Shown: positions 44,183 through 49,737 of the stretch, in pieces
Position numbering within the stretch: the first letter of the stretch is position 1
Layout of the letters: each line of letters starts with the position of its first letter
Notes under the pieces: model-generated
Database searches by the model: none
Told to the model about the DNA's origin: nothing
The model's input: only the letters and a program-made list of their open reading frames with translations
Assembly: GCF_000242915.1 (NCBI RefSeq)
Contig: NZ_AFRZ01000001.1
Location: 1,550,001 to 1,614,000 of the forward strand
From: Sulfurimonas gotlandica GD1
Lineage (GTDB): Bacteria; Campylobacterota; Campylobacteria; Campylobacterales; Sulfurimonadaceae
Direction of reading: 5' to 3'
DNA length: 64,000 nucleotides
Program-made: the position numbers and the translations under genes

Positions 44183-46185
44183 TGAGAACTAAACTAAAAA
44201 ATATTTTTTTTAGTATTTTACTGCTGGGGTTTTTAACTCCATTTCTGGTACTGGGATATTTTTTAACTGCACACAGTTATGATATCTCTCCGCTTACAAA
44301 CTATAATCCAGATGTAACAACTAGAATTTATGATAAAAACGGCGATAAAATAGCAAACATATTTGACGAAAAACATAGATATTATGCATCTTTTTCAGAG
44401 ATTCCTCCAAGAGTTATTGAAGCTCTTGTAGCCATAGAAGACACAACATTTTTTGAACATCCAGGTATAAATATAGATGCTATCTTTCGTGCGGGTATTA
44501 AAGTGATTAAGGCCGGAAAAGCGGTAGAGGGAGCAAGTACAATTACTCAACAGCTTGTAAAAAACGTACTGCTAACAAGAGAGAAAAAACTATCACGTAA
44601 GATAAAAGAAGCTATATTTGCTCTAAAAATAGAACGGGCTCTTACAAAAGAGCAGATCTTAGAGTGTTACTTAAATGAGATTTATTATGGACATGGATAC
44701 TACGGCATCAAAACGGCTGCTGATGGTTATTTTCATAAAAAACTAGATGACTTGACTCTGAAAGAGATGGCCATTTTAGTTGGTCTGCCAAAAGCACCAA
44801 GTACTTATGCACCTACAAAAAATTATGAAATATCTATGGGAAGAGCAAACCGTGTAATATCCAGAATGCACATACTTGGCTGGATAGATGAAGATACATA
44901 CACAGAAGCTTTGCTTGAAAGTCCTAAAGTTTTCGATGACACACTTACTCAAAACAAAGCTCCTTTTATAGTTGATGAAGTTGCCAGACGTGCATCTGGA
45001 CTTGGCATCCAGGATATGAAAACAGGTGGATATGAGATATATACAACTATTGATATCAGACTTCAAGAAGCAGCAAGAGATGCGCTGAAGAATGCTTATG
45101 ATAATTCACTAGAGCGCATAGAGGGTTACAAGGTAAGAGAAGCAAAGATACTAGAAACAAATCCAGAATACGAAATATCTCAGGATGTAAACACAACTCT
45201 TTTAAATGGTTCACTGGTTTCACTTGATTCAAAAACAGGAGATATTTTGGCTCTTGTTGGAAGTGTTGATTATAAGACTTCATCTTACAATCGTGCAACT
45301 CAAGGAAAAAGACTTCCAGGTTCTGCATTTAAACCGTTTATTTATCAAGTCGCTGTTGATCTTGGTTACTCAGGAGCCACTGAACTTGTAGATATTGCCA
45401 GAACTTATACTTATGAAAAAGATGGTGAAGAGATGAAATGGCAGCCTAATAATTATGAAAAAAACTATAAGGGTCTAATTAGTTTAAGAGAGGCTCTCAT
45501 CCATTCTAGAAATCTGGCAACAATCAATCTTGTAAATGATATAGGACTGGAGCAACTACTACGAGAGTTGAAAAAATTCGGCATAGAAAATCTTCCTCAT
45601 AACCTTTCAATTTCTCTTGGAACGATTACACTTTCACCTTTAGAGCTTGCTAAATATTACACATCTTTTGCAAATCATGGTTTGCAGGTAGAACCGCATC
45701 TCATTATCTCGATAGACAAAAATGCTAAGACTATATATGAAAAAACACAAAGTACTAACTATATAACAGCACCAACTCAAGCCTATATAATGACGACAAT
45801 CTTAAGAGATGTTGTTAACAGAGGAACTGGAAGAAATGCTAGAGCCAAAGGCATTGAGCTAGCAGGGAAAACAGGAACTACAAATAATAATATAGATGGT
45901 TGGTTCGCCGGTTACTCTCCTACAATAGAGACTATAGTATGGTTCGGAAACGATGATAATACCCCAATGCACAGATGGGAAACCGGCGGTAAAATAGCAG
46001 GTCCTGCATTTTCACAGTTTTACGAAAATGTACTAAGATTATATCCTCAAATACAAAGAGAGTTTGTAGCTCCTGAGGGAATTGTCGAAGTTGATATTGG
46101 CGGTAGAAAAGAATATTTTAGTGATATTTCTAAGCCACCAAGAGCAGAAAAAGAAGCAAATGCAGAAGAGGAGTTGTTGTTTTGA
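44179..46185 (+). CDS. class A penicillin-binding protein 1A
   Basis: Bifunctional peptidoglycan polymerase, 668 residues. Membrane anchor (10-30); glycosyltransferase GT51 with catalytic E87 (EDTTFFEHPG), GASTITQQLVKN and NEIYYGHG; transpeptidase with S382-x-x-K385 (GSAFKPF), S443-R-N445 and K564-T-G-T567. Complete. Close to E. coli MrcA in layout but shorter, as in other Campylobacterota. The stop overlaps the start of the next gene by one base. Confidence 0.96.
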   Translation: MMRTKLKNIFFSILLLGFLTPFLVLGYFLTAHSYDISPLTNYNPDVTTRIYDKNGDKIANIFDEKHRYYASFSEIPPRVIEALVAIEDTTFFEHPGINIDAIFRAGIKVIKAGKAVEGASTITQQLVKNVLLTREKKLSRKIKEAIFALKIERALTKEQILECYLNEIYYGHGYYGIKTAADGYFHKKLDDLTLKEMAILVGLPKAPSTYAPTKNYEISMGRANRVISRMHILGWIDEDTYTEALLESPKVFDDTLTQNKAPFIVDEVARRASGLGIQDMKTGGYEIYTTIDIRLQEAARDALKNAYDNSLERIEGYKVREAKILETNPEYEISQDVNTTLLNGSLVSLDSKTGDILALVGSVDYKTSSYNRATQGKRLPGSAFKPFIYQVAVDLGYSGATELVDIARTYTYEKDGEEMKWQPNNYEKNYKGLISLREALIHSRNLATINLVNDIGLEQLLRELKKFGIENLPHNLSISLGTITLSPLELAKYYTSFANHGLQVEPHLIISIDKNAKTIYEKTQSTNYITAPTQAYIMTTILRDVVNRGTGRNARAKGIELAGKTGTTNNNIDGWFAGYSPTIETIVWFGNDDNTPMHRWETGGKIAGPAFSQFYENVLRLYPQIQREFVAPEGIVEVDIGGRKEYFSDISKPPRAEKEANAEEELLF

Positions 46186-46682
46186 TGAAAAATATATTAC
46201 TAGCTTTGTTACTACTTAGCAGTATGGCAAGCGCAGAACTGTTTAAAAAGTCAAATGTAGGAGTAGGTGTAGCTATCGGTGGTGGTACTGTAACTACGGT
46301 TAGAGACGGACAGCAAAACTACACAATACTTGGTGTTAATGCTGATTATTTCGTAATAGATAACTTGTCTGTAGGTATTGGTTTTATGAGTTGGTTAGGT
46401 GCTACTCCTACACTAAACCAAATTACAGTTCCGGTTACTTACTACATACCTCTAAATGAAAAATTGCGTCCATATGTTGGAGCATTTGTAAGAAAGACTT
46501 ATGTAAGTGATGGTTATGAAGATTTTGAGTCGTATGGTGGAAAACTTGGTGTGGCTATGATTTTATCTCCGAACTCTTATATCGGTGCGGGGATGATAAG
46601 CGAACACCAATCATCTTGCTCTAAATGGCAAGATAGTTGCTCAAGAACATACCCTGAGTTTGTGTTCGCTTTCTCTTTTTAG
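46185..46682 (+). CDS. small outer-membrane beta-barrel protein
   Basis: 165 residues: signal peptide ending at ASA (about residue 18), alternating beta strands (VGVGVAIGGGTVTTV, LGVNADYFVI, YVGAFVRKTYV), C-terminal Phe (FVFAFSF). Resembles OmpW/OmpX-size 8-strand barrels. Two Cys near the end (SSCSKWQDSC) could form an extracellular-loop disulfide. I use ATG 46185 rather than a TTG one codon before. Coupled to PBP1A; convergent with the TSP3 barrel gene. Confidence 0.82.
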   Translation: MKNILLALLLLSSMASAELFKKSNVGVGVAIGGGTVTTVRDGQQNYTILGVNADYFVIDNLSVGIGFMSWLGATPTLNQITVPVTYYIPLNEKLRPYVGAFVRKTYVSDGYEDFESYGGKLGVAMILSPNSYIGAGMISEHQSSCSKWQDSCSRTYPEFVFAFSF

Positions 46683-47491: not shown

Positions 47492-47508
47492 TATATATCC
47501 TTTGCTGC

Positions 47509-47524
47509 CGCTGCTTTAGCAGCG
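47509..47524 (-). other. hairpin between the exported small protein and the barrel gene
   Basis: CGCTGC - TTTA - GCAGCG six-base perfect stem, no T-run. It lies within the 44-bp gap; may tune expression of the downstream gene. Confidence 0.45.
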
Positions 47525-47535
47525 ATAGCTTTCAT

Positions 47536-47940
47536 TTATTTATTACCCATAAATCTGTTTTGACCTTGTCCGCCTGCACCAGTTTTGTTCTGTTGCATAG
47601 CTTGAGAGCCTGCCTGTTTTTGTTGCATCTGTTGCACTCTTTGCATCTCCTCTGTTTGTTCCATCTGGTTTACACGGCTTCTTTCTCTTGTTCTCTCTCT
47701 TGTTTGAGTTTGAAGTTGTTCACCGTCTTTACTCATAGTTGCACGAAGTTCTGCTATAGCAGCAGCTCTCTCATCTGCACTTAGAGCAGAGATAGTTTCC
47801 TTAAACTCATTTACCAGTGCTACTCTTTCATCTGGAGTTGCAGCAGCTCCAATCGCAGCTATTTGCTCATCTATAGTAGCTGCACCTAATGTCAATGCTC
47901 CTAGCAACATCAAAGTCGCTGTAAGTTTTAAAGTTCTCAT
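47536..47940 (-). CDS. exported helical protein with Gln/Arg/Met-rich tail
   Basis: 134 residues: signal peptide (1-20, ending GAA), an Ala/Glu-rich helical segment (about 22-70), then a low-complexity tail rich in Gln, Arg, Thr and Met (RTRERSR, MQQKQ) ending Gly-Asn-Lys. No Cys. It has the size and helicity of CpxP/Spy-like periplasmic stress proteins, without their LTxxQ motifs; Met-rich tails may bind metal. AAAAGGAT precedes the ATG. Four phased repeats lie upstream (47991-48034), so it is the best-predicted target of the adjacent two-component system. Confidence 0.75.
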   Translation of the reverse strand: MRTLKLTATLMLLGALTLGAATIDEQIAAIGAAATPDERVALVNEFKETISALSADERAAAIAELRATMSKDGEQLQTQTRERTRERSRVNQMEQTEEMQRVQQMQQKQAGSQAMQQNKTGAGGQGQNRFMGNK

Positions 47941-47990
47941 CTTAAATCCTTTTCATTTGTTTTTTTGATACTGTTATTGTCGCATAAGAG

Positions 47991-48034
47991 TGTTAGTCAT
48001 ATGTAAGTCAATTGTTAGCGAAGTGTTAGTTTAG
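47991..48034 (-). promoter_or_regulatory. four 11-bp phased direct repeats, response-regulator operator
   Basis: On the plus strand TGTTAG (47991), TGTAAG (48002), TGTTAG (48013), TGTTAG (48024), exactly 11 bp apart, i.e. one helical turn, as in OmpR/PhoB-family sites. A -10-like GACAAT for the minus-strand small gene lies 9 bp from the array (47976-47981). The last two repeats reach into the kinase 3' end. Confidence 0.75.
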
Positions 48035-49070
48035 ATAGATCAAGAGAGAATGTTGTACCACTCTCCAGTTTACTCTCGACACCTACCTTGATTCCAAGTT
48101 CATCGCATAGTTTTTTAACTATATGAAGACCTATTCCGATGCCTCTATCTTGCTCTTTATAAAATCTATCAAAGATTTTTTTTGGATTTTGTATACCTTT
48201 TCCTGAGTCGATGATATTTAGAATCATAGAACTTTTCTCATAGACTACTTTCACAAAACCATTTTTCTTGTTGTATTTAGCTGCATTGGTGATTATATTG
48301 CTTATTATTCTTGTGAAAGCTTCTTTGTTTGTTAAGAGTTTTATGCCTTTGGCGTCTGCGCTAAAGTCTATGTCAGTATAGTTTTTCTCTACTAAAGAGA
48401 TTTGCTCTCTTAGTATAGTCCCTAGTTCAAACTCCTCTTTTTGCATATCGTGGTTTTTCAAGTATGAGCGTAGATGCTTTTGAAGTGAGAGTATATTTTC
48501 TACGCTTTGCTCGATTCTGTCTACTTTTTCGTTTTTACCTATCTCTCTTTTTAACATGGAACTATTTAGGCGTAAAGTTGAAAGCGGAGTGTTAAAATCA
48601 TGCAGTATATCTTTGATAAACTCTTGCGTTAGTAGCAGGGCATTTCTAAGAGGATAAAGAGCGTAGAAGGAAAAAAGGATAGATAGTATAAGAACTACTC
48701 CAAGAACTGCTATAAAGTACCCTATATCACTCTTTTTTAGCTCATATACTTCTGCGCTGTATTTTTGGCTGTCAAGTTGTAAAAGCATGATGTTTTTTGT
48801 AGAACCTGGTATAGGGTAGTAGCTAGTCAATCCTCTCTCATCTTTATATAAAGAGTATAGTTTCTCATCTTTGTGCTCTACAAAGTCTATGTGAAACTGC
48901 TCACACTTCAGATCAAAACTACATACCCGCATTTCAGACAAAAGTCTCTCATCAAGTGTCTGTACTTCTTTTGTGAAGTTTATATAAAAAAGAGTTGCAA
49001 TGAGCAGACCAAGTGAAATAAAAAAAAGTAAAAAGCTTTTTAAAAATGATTCTCTCTCAACTTTATTCAA
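48015..49070 (-). CDS. sensor histidine kinase
   Basis: 351 residues: membrane helix (11-31), short periplasmic sensor (32-114) with two Cys, C50 and C56, membrane helix (116-138), phospho-acceptor H157 in ILHDFNTPLSTL, and the HATPase with N box (ISNIITNAAKYN), G1 (DSGKGI), and G2 (GIGIGLHIVKKL). There is no clear HAMP. The two close cysteines could make a redox or metal sensor; inference only. Start overlaps the regulator's end by 8 bp. Confidence 0.94.
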   Translation of the reverse strand: MNKVERESFLKSFLLFFISLGLLIATLFYINFTKEVQTLDERLLSEMRVCSFDLKCEQFHIDFVEHKDEKLYSLYKDERGLTSYYPIPGSTKNIMLLQLDSQKYSAEVYELKKSDIGYFIAVLGVVLILSILFSFYALYPLRNALLLTQEFIKDILHDFNTPLSTLRLNSSMLKREIGKNEKVDRIEQSVENILSLQKHLRSYLKNHDMQKEEFELGTILREQISLVEKNYTDIDFSADAKGIKLLTNKEAFTRIISNIITNAAKYNKKNGFVKVVYEKSSMILNIIDSGKGIQNPKKIFDRFYKEQDRGIGIGLHIVKKLCDELGIKVGVESKLESGTTFSLDLSKLTLR

Positions 49071-49695
49071 GAATATATCCTACGCCTCTAAGATTTTTGA
49101 TATTCAGACCTGTTGTTTGTTTTAGTTTTGTTATGGCTACTCTTAGTCCTGTTGGAGATGGTTTTTCTAAACACTCCATGAGGATGTCTTTATCTAAAAC
49201 TTGACCAATGTTTTGTATGAAGATACTAAAGAGTTTTTCCTGTGTCTCACCAAGTGCAAGAGCATGACCATCTTTTTTTAGCAGTTTTTTTTGCGGGTTA
49301 TACTCTATAGTTTTGTATTTGATATTTGAGCTTTTAATTGCTAGTTTAGCGTTTACTCTTATGAGTAACTCTTCTGGAAAAAAAGGTTTTTTTATGTAGT
49401 CTTGGGCCCCAATCTCAAAGGCTTTTGCAATTGAGTTCAAATCAACTAAGGCACTGATAAAAATAGCTTGTGTGTTATCATCAGCATCTCTGAGGCTTTT
49501 GAGAAGTTCAAGGCCATTTATATCAGGTACGTTGATGTCAAATATATATAAATCAAAACTATGCTCATAACTCTCATCTATTGCTGAGTTTCCAGATGTC
49601 ACAAGCGTGACATCGTAACCCTCAGATTCTAAGAGTTCATGCAGAGTTTGTGCTAATAATAAGTCATCTTCAAGTAGTAGTATTTTTTTGCTCAT
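49063..49695 (-). CDS. OmpR/PhoB-family response regulator
   Basis: 210 residues: receiver with acidic D10/D11, phospho-acceptor D53 (YIFDINVPD), KKPF lysine, and a C-terminal winged helix (about 125-210). First gene of the pair. A TATAAT lies just upstream on the minus strand (49701-49706), so close to the ATG that the mRNA may be leaderless, and a phased repeat pair at 49716-49737 suggests autoregulation. Confidence 0.94.
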   Translation of the reverse strand: MSKKILLLEDDLLLAQTLHELLESEGYDVTLVTSGNSAIDESYEHSFDLYIFDINVPDINGLELLKSLRDADDNTQAIFISALVDLNSIAKAFEIGAQDYIKKPFFPEELLIRVNAKLAIKSSNIKYKTIEYNPQKKLLKKDGHALALGETQEKLFSIFIQNIGQVLDKDILMECLEKPSPTGLRVAITKLKQTTGLNIKNLRGVGYILE

Positions 49696-49715
49696 ACCTT
49701 ATTATAAGATATGAG

Positions 49716-49737
49716 TATTAGCGGAGTGTTAACGAAG
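49716..49737 (-). promoter_or_regulatory. 11-bp phased repeat pair upstream of the response regulator
   Basis: TATTAGCGGAG then TGTTAACGAAG, 11 bp apart; the second differs by one base from TGTTAGCGAAG in the 48013 repeat. It is 9 bp from a minus-strand TATAAT (49701-49706), the same spacing as at the small-protein promoter. Confidence 0.65.

Follow-up and report, generated by a model that had tools for sequence, protein, structure and literature searches.

The pho box of PhoB/OmpR-type regulation consists of 11-bp direct repeats, which stand in tandem as two to four units about 10 bp upstream of the -10 element in promoters that lack a -35 element, and such regulators can act on their own genes. 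The same 11-bp period is found in TTCAC-N6-TTCAC, the repeat of DccR in Campylobacter jejuni. CpxRA with CpxP and Spy, and ZraSR with ZraP, are envelope sensors that control themselves together with a small periplasmic helical protein. In Sulfurospirillum, the OmpR-type regulator PceP has CTATA repeats with 6-nt gaps that overlap the -35 element; it controls its own operon, and the published consensus, CTATW-N17-CTATW, skips the middle repeat (PMC7755780). According to a review, the OmpR-type DccR of C. jejuni raises the expression of a few genes whose products are putative periplasmic and membrane proteins (PMC9449129).

Here, a stretch of 64,000 nt from the genome of Sulfurimonas gotlandica GD1 (hereafter the window; positions 1550001-1614000 of the 2.95-Mb single contig) was analyzed, in which an OmpR/PhoB-type response regulator (RR), a sensor histidine kinase (HK), a small exported protein and a TSP3-repeat outer-membrane barrel are accompanied by two arrays of repeated boxes (Table 1). 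A sequence-only reading of this DNA had proposed an autoregulated OmpR/PhoB-type system that controls the small protein and perhaps also the barrel, and this proposal is supported by phylogenetic footprinting. We consider it highly probable that the arrays serve as operators for the adjacent RR, through which the RR-HK and small gene-barrel operons would be activated in a PhoB-like, class II manner; the module very probably represents a familiar type of cell-envelope response that is conserved and controls itself.

The 11-bp direct repeats in tandem units of two to four, their position about 10 bp upstream of the -10 element, the absence of a -35 element and the apparent autoregulation are all shared with PhoB/OmpR regulation. 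The box here is CTAACA, however, the regulator has only 210 aa, no phosphate genes are present and activation is putative. DccR/DccS likewise combines an OmpR-type RR with the same period, but its motif is unlike CTAACA. The likeness to CpxRA and ZraSR lies in a self-controlling envelope sensor with a small protein, and the array-led genes of two relatives (L163 and L170) include a Met-rich protein of the LTXXQ/Spy family; in contrast, the small protein of the window is not LTXXQ/Spy by sequence, and a TSP3 barrel is added here. PceP/PceS comes from a related bacterium and agrees with the present system in its OmpR-type RR, the period of 11 and the control of its own operon, whereas its box sequence differs and its targets serve organohalide respiration (PMC7755780). 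Neither the operator type nor an autoregulated sensor paired with a small periplasmic protein is thus new in kind; PceP and DccR are near analogues, and a literature search found no description of this RR/kinase/small-protein system. What appears to be unusual is a lineage-specific regulator mRNA that is predicted to be without a leader.

Table 1. Coordinates of the genes and putative regulatory elements of the module in the window
Feature	Position	Strand	Remark
TSP3-repeat outer-membrane barrel, 270 aa	46679..47491	-	second gene after array 1
Intercistronic hairpin, small gene/barrel, no T-run	47492..47535	-	just before barrel Shine-Dalgarno; z -3.3
Small exported Gln/Arg-rich protein, 134 aa, probable distant DUF1104 relative	47536..47940	-	
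Predicted -10 element GACAAT, small-gene promoter	47976..47981	-	9 bp from last array 1 box
Putative operator array 1, four CTAACA/CTTACA boxes, 11-bp period	47991..48029	-	upstream of small gene
Sensor histidine kinase, 351 aa	48015..49070	-	small periplasmic domain with C50 and C56
OmpR/PhoB-type response regulator, 210 aa	49063..49695	-	receiver domain
Predicted -10 element TATAAT	49701..49706	-	9 bp from array 2, 5 nt from RR start codon
Putative operator array 2, TTAACA and CTAATA, 11-bp period	49716..49732	-	upstream of RR

Upstream of the small exported protein, four boxes exactly 11 bp apart had been reported, ending 9 bp from a -10-like box on the minus strand, and both the positions and the -10 box, GACAAT, were confirmed. 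On the plus strand the boxes start at 47991 (TGTTAG), 48002 (TGTAAG), 48013 (TGTTAG) and 48024 (TGTTAG); on the minus strand they read CTAACA (48029-48024), CTAACA (48018-48013), CTTACA (48007-48002) and CTAACA (47996-47991). The 9-bp spacer that follows is CTCTTATGC, and the TATGc ahead of GACAAT resembles an extended -10. The whole promoter reads CTAACActtcgCTAACAattgaCTTACAtatgaCTAACActcttatgcGACAAT on the minus strand, and the gene begins at 47940, its leader of 35 nt after the -10 element carrying a Shine-Dalgarno sequence. Across most loci this leader varies from 24 to 70 nt and includes a Shine-Dalgarno sequence of the AAGGA type. When four-box scores were calculated with box weights hand-set from the RR promoters, and hence as descriptive values, the best score in the window was 44.3, at array 1, whereas 20 shuffled versions of the window reached no more than 33.4. 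The three-box pattern without mismatches was matched at array 1 only in the whole genome. Thus, the four-box array is beyond chance.

A point absent from the sequence-only reading is that the two distal boxes of array 1 overlap the last codons and the stop codon of HK (CTA ACA CTT CGC TAA, i.e., L-T-L-R-stop), and the repeats could in principle be kept by the coding of the kinase C-terminus and by shared ancestry instead of regulation. Neither array 2 nor the last boxes of array 1 encode protein, however, and arrays stand before the small gene away from the kinase end elsewhere. In four relatives (L039, L040, L044 and L047) the operon runs small gene-barrel-RR-HK, with an array before the small gene and none at RR, and the arrangement in L029 is similar; in L158, RR and the small gene are divergent and have one array each. 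Arrays also occur in further families of the order, where the boxes shift to CTAACG, GTAACA or GTAACG and many loci keep period and gap. Since the arrays follow the promoter in rearranged loci, kinase coding and simple neighbourhood are removed as explanations, and we give hardly any credence to this alternative.

For RR itself, two boxes had been claimed, again in an array 9 bp from a -10 element, and one of them was said to differ by a single change from TGTTAGCGAAG; the TATAAT element and the box, TGTTAACGAAG, bear this out. The boxes on the minus strand are TTAACA (49732-49727) and CTAATA (49721-49716), followed by 9 bp to the -10 element; the promoter reads TTAACActccgCTAATActcatatctTATAATaaggtATG, and the RR ATG is at 49695. 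A single box pair with two mismatches was found 12 times as compared with 10 expected, which is the level of chance, so array 2 alone is not significant and the comparative evidence decides. The RR search yielded 80 loci, about 40 of which hold orthologues by identity and gene order. The consensus TTAACAcTTCaCTAACAcTTnTnnACTATAATnnnnnATG recurs upstream of RR in about 20 of the 22 close orthologues, and in L012 and L030 the boxes are weak or absent. Over the last 50 bp of the RR upstreams the mean pairwise identity is 54%, and information is concentrated in the boxes and the -10 element. Downstream of the kinase, most loci have two to four boxes, the same gap, and then a -10 element and the small gene. 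An array with a -10 element stands before the small gene in about 30 loci.

Furthermore, 416 kb around the RR homologues were scanned for all combinations of periods 8-15 and gaps 5-13, which gives a map independent of prior knowledge of either value. Period 11 with gap 9 gave 47 matches, as compared with 0-8 for nearly all other combinations, and the only secondary peaks, of 23 and 15 matches, share period 11. Among the 281 gene upstreams at the RR loci, those with a score of at least 20 are almost all RR or small-gene promoters.

Several loci hold other genes behind an array. In three (L038:2218, L042:2695 and L045:2393), the place of the small gene behind the post-kinase array is taken by a gene for a lipoprotein with the motif VDSAVEGVxYxCG; a second array accompanies a second small paralogue at L030:8976; and an extra short Gly/Gln-rich exported protein lies between array and small gene at L012:1799. 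Small cytochrome c genes are array-led at L163:5160-6178, L168:2511-3532 and L170:5081-6180, the last judged by its CxxCH motif only.

The -10 element of RR stands very close to the start codon. Leaderless mRNAs of Epsilonproteobacteria are marked, in the sections of the report considered here, by gnTAnaAT-N5-9-ATG and no Shine-Dalgarno sequence (PMC3847290). The RR gene has the same -10-to-ATG layout, with TAnAaT 5-9 nt before the ATG and no Shine-Dalgarno sequence as in the published criterion, and the examples in those sections name no response-regulator gene (PMC3847290). In all 22 close orthologues a -10 element with at least five of six matches lies 5-6 nt ahead of the RR start codon, and a Shine-Dalgarno-like motif at -18 to -4 is found in none; among 163 control ORFs, a -10 element so placed occurs in 12 and a Shine-Dalgarno-like motif in 77. 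A start codon further into RR would cut off the acidic residues of the receiver domain. A leaderless RR mRNA is therefore predicted for the Sulfurimonas group. In L158, L159 and L165, which lie outside this group, RR has a leader with a Shine-Dalgarno sequence behind its promoter, so the leaderless state looks lineage-specific.

Within the source genome, scans for tandem boxes with a -10 element, as the sequence-only reading had suggested, made only the two sites of the module stand out. Two boxes and a -10 element with one mismatch gave 10 matches as compared with 8 in the reversed control, and the three-box pattern with up to three mismatches gave 7 as compared with 7. The module appears to be the only clear regulon in this genome. 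The strongest candidate outside the module is a repeat of the TAACA type, CTAACActatcGTAACAatttttttgTAAAAT, which also has an 11-bp period and lies 9 bp from a TAAAAT element before a NosL-like gene (G000:C1:2478909-2478940; L097 1501-1532). This label derives from a DCGMVI motif and the adjoining DsbD_2 gene, as Pfam assigns no family. The repeat recurs in relatives with the same geometry, including genomes that lack the kinase (G114 and G126), and is missing in several genomes with the kinase. On these grounds the NosL-like gene was rejected as a member of the RR regulon, and its repeat probably belongs to another OmpR-type regulator. The geometry, but not the whole code, is thus shared.

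This raises the question of whether the module arrays themselves serve a paralogous OmpR-family regulator, or several, so that the linked system is only co-regulated. These genomes commonly encode RR homologues at 36-41% identity, and the TAACA-type box of the same geometry before the NosL-like gene, in relatives with and without the kinase, means that a paralogous regulator may share or recognize the motif. Against this, the second box of the NosL-type motif differs (GTAACA), the arrays precede RR itself or its operon, and the small gene is nearly confined to kinase-bearing genomes. A survey of 299 genomes from the order found the small protein in 85 and the kinase sensor domain in 111. The two occur together in 84 genomes, and the only genome that has the small protein without the kinase is 65% complete. 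The P-value of this association (5e-49, Fisher's exact test) overstates the evidence, because the genomes are related and the counts are not independent. Control by a paralogue is considered improbable, and the adjacent RR is kept as the most likely ligand of the arrays.

Under the favored explanation, the kinase, upon its putative signal, would phosphorylate the OmpR/PhoB-type RR, which would then line up head-to-tail on two to four CTAACA-N5 direct repeats, one helical turn apart. PhoB-like class II promoters have direct repeats spaced by 10-11 bp that stop about 10 bp short of the -10 element and replace the -35 element, and the layout here agrees with this. With its end 9 bp upstream of the -10 element, the array would replace the -35 element, and because it takes this place, RR most likely recruits RNA polymerase like PhoB. 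The first target would be the RR-HK operon itself, whose mRNA in the Sulfurimonas group is predicted to lack a leader; the second would be the operon of the small exported protein and the barrel. As a variant of this explanation, RR could bind the arrays as a repressor that blocks RNA polymerase until the signal relieves it. The array reaches from just upstream of the -10 element to about 50 bp beyond, and the geometry also fits repression because promoters of this phylum often function without a -35 element. The arrays nevertheless sit where PhoB-type activators sit, and the strongly conserved 9-bp gap suggests contact with the polymerase, not simple blocking. Repression is thus considered unlikely, and activation is retained as the preferred mode.

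The assignment of RR is based on its receiver domain (PF00072, E 2.7e-26, 92.3 bits against a cut-off of 30.2). Residues 144-209 resemble the winged-helix DNA-binding domain PF00486 at E 5e-4, with 20.5 bits, below the cut-off of 26.2, and the NCBIfam models RprY and PhoB match over the whole length, both below their cut-offs. In the kinase, a long first helix is followed by a periplasmic domain of about 50-60 residues (structure model, pLDDT 81), and comparison of the sensor domain with solved structures gave no significant match. M47, C50, S51 and C56 are invariant across 30 aligned kinase sensors (M-x2-C-S-x4-C). A universal role of C50 and C56 as a redox or metal sensor was nevertheless rejected, since the pair is replaced in L158, L161-L164 and L166-L172; with the pair lost in several lineages, it is not an essential signal site everywhere.

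The small protein, for which a signal peptide was predicted by eye, has a conserved helical core (VDxQIxxIxxAxxxERVxLMNEFKxxLSTLSxEERxxAIxxLR) and a helical, Gln/Arg/Met-rich tail. Its AlphaFold model has a pLDDT of 65.7 overall and 81-87 in the core, and a fold search with this model returned nothing significant. No Pfam or NCBIfam family was found above cut-off, and the source genome holds no paralogue of the gene. None of 31 members matches PF07813 or PF13801 (LTXXQ, Metal_resist), and alignment with the Spy-type protein of L170 gave an hhalign probability of 2.5. The profile does align, at an hhalign probability of 90.8 and E 1.2e-6, with the L158 small protein, which passes the cut-off of DUF1104 (PF06518), whereas the window protein has no direct Pfam match; the structure of HP0721 (2xrh) gave a weak profile match over the same core (E 0.38). 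DUF1104 takes in HP0721 of H. pylori (PMC11394524). The small protein is thus probably a distant DUF1104 relative. In the periplasm it may act as a CpxP/Spy-like feedback partner of the kinase or as a stress or chaperone factor; because the LTXXQ test failed, this likeness to CpxP is an analogy from the gene setting and not one of membership.

The barrel, with its TSP3 repeat at the N-terminus, lies directly 3' of the small gene in most loci. Beside it in the window, at 46182-46682 on the plus strand, is a convergent gene for another outer-membrane beta-barrel. Among 16 loci with a small gene-barrel gap longer than 40 nt, all have a hairpin with a stem of about 6-13 bp and no T-run just before the barrel start region; the sequences differ, and z is below -2 in 15. 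A tiny ORF between the two genes (MKAIAAKAAAAKDI) was rejected as a candidate, being present in the window only; it is the hairpin that recurs. We infer that the hairpin acts as a 3' stabilizer that ends the small-protein message, or as a partial barrier, so that the small protein would possibly be made in excess of the barrel.

A broader reading is that of an envelope-stress system throughout the Campylobacterales, in which a fixed operator code of CTAACA-N5 repeats placed 9 bp from the -10 element drives fast-evolving small exported proteins (DUF1104-like, LTXXQ/Spy and cytochrome c) and the RR mRNA became leaderless in Sulfurimonas. We offer it tentatively, as conceivable though somewhat short of probable; if true, autoregulation would act on a leaderless RR transcript that escapes leader-dependent translational control. 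With the present analysis, an unstudied but widespread sensor system gains a defined putative operator and a small candidate regulon, with testable predictions. DUF1104 and its relatives, together with the TSP3 barrel, would be tied to an envelope-response regulator throughout the order to which Helicobacter and Campylobacter belong as well, and RR may offer a clean case of how a regulator's own mRNA becomes leaderless.
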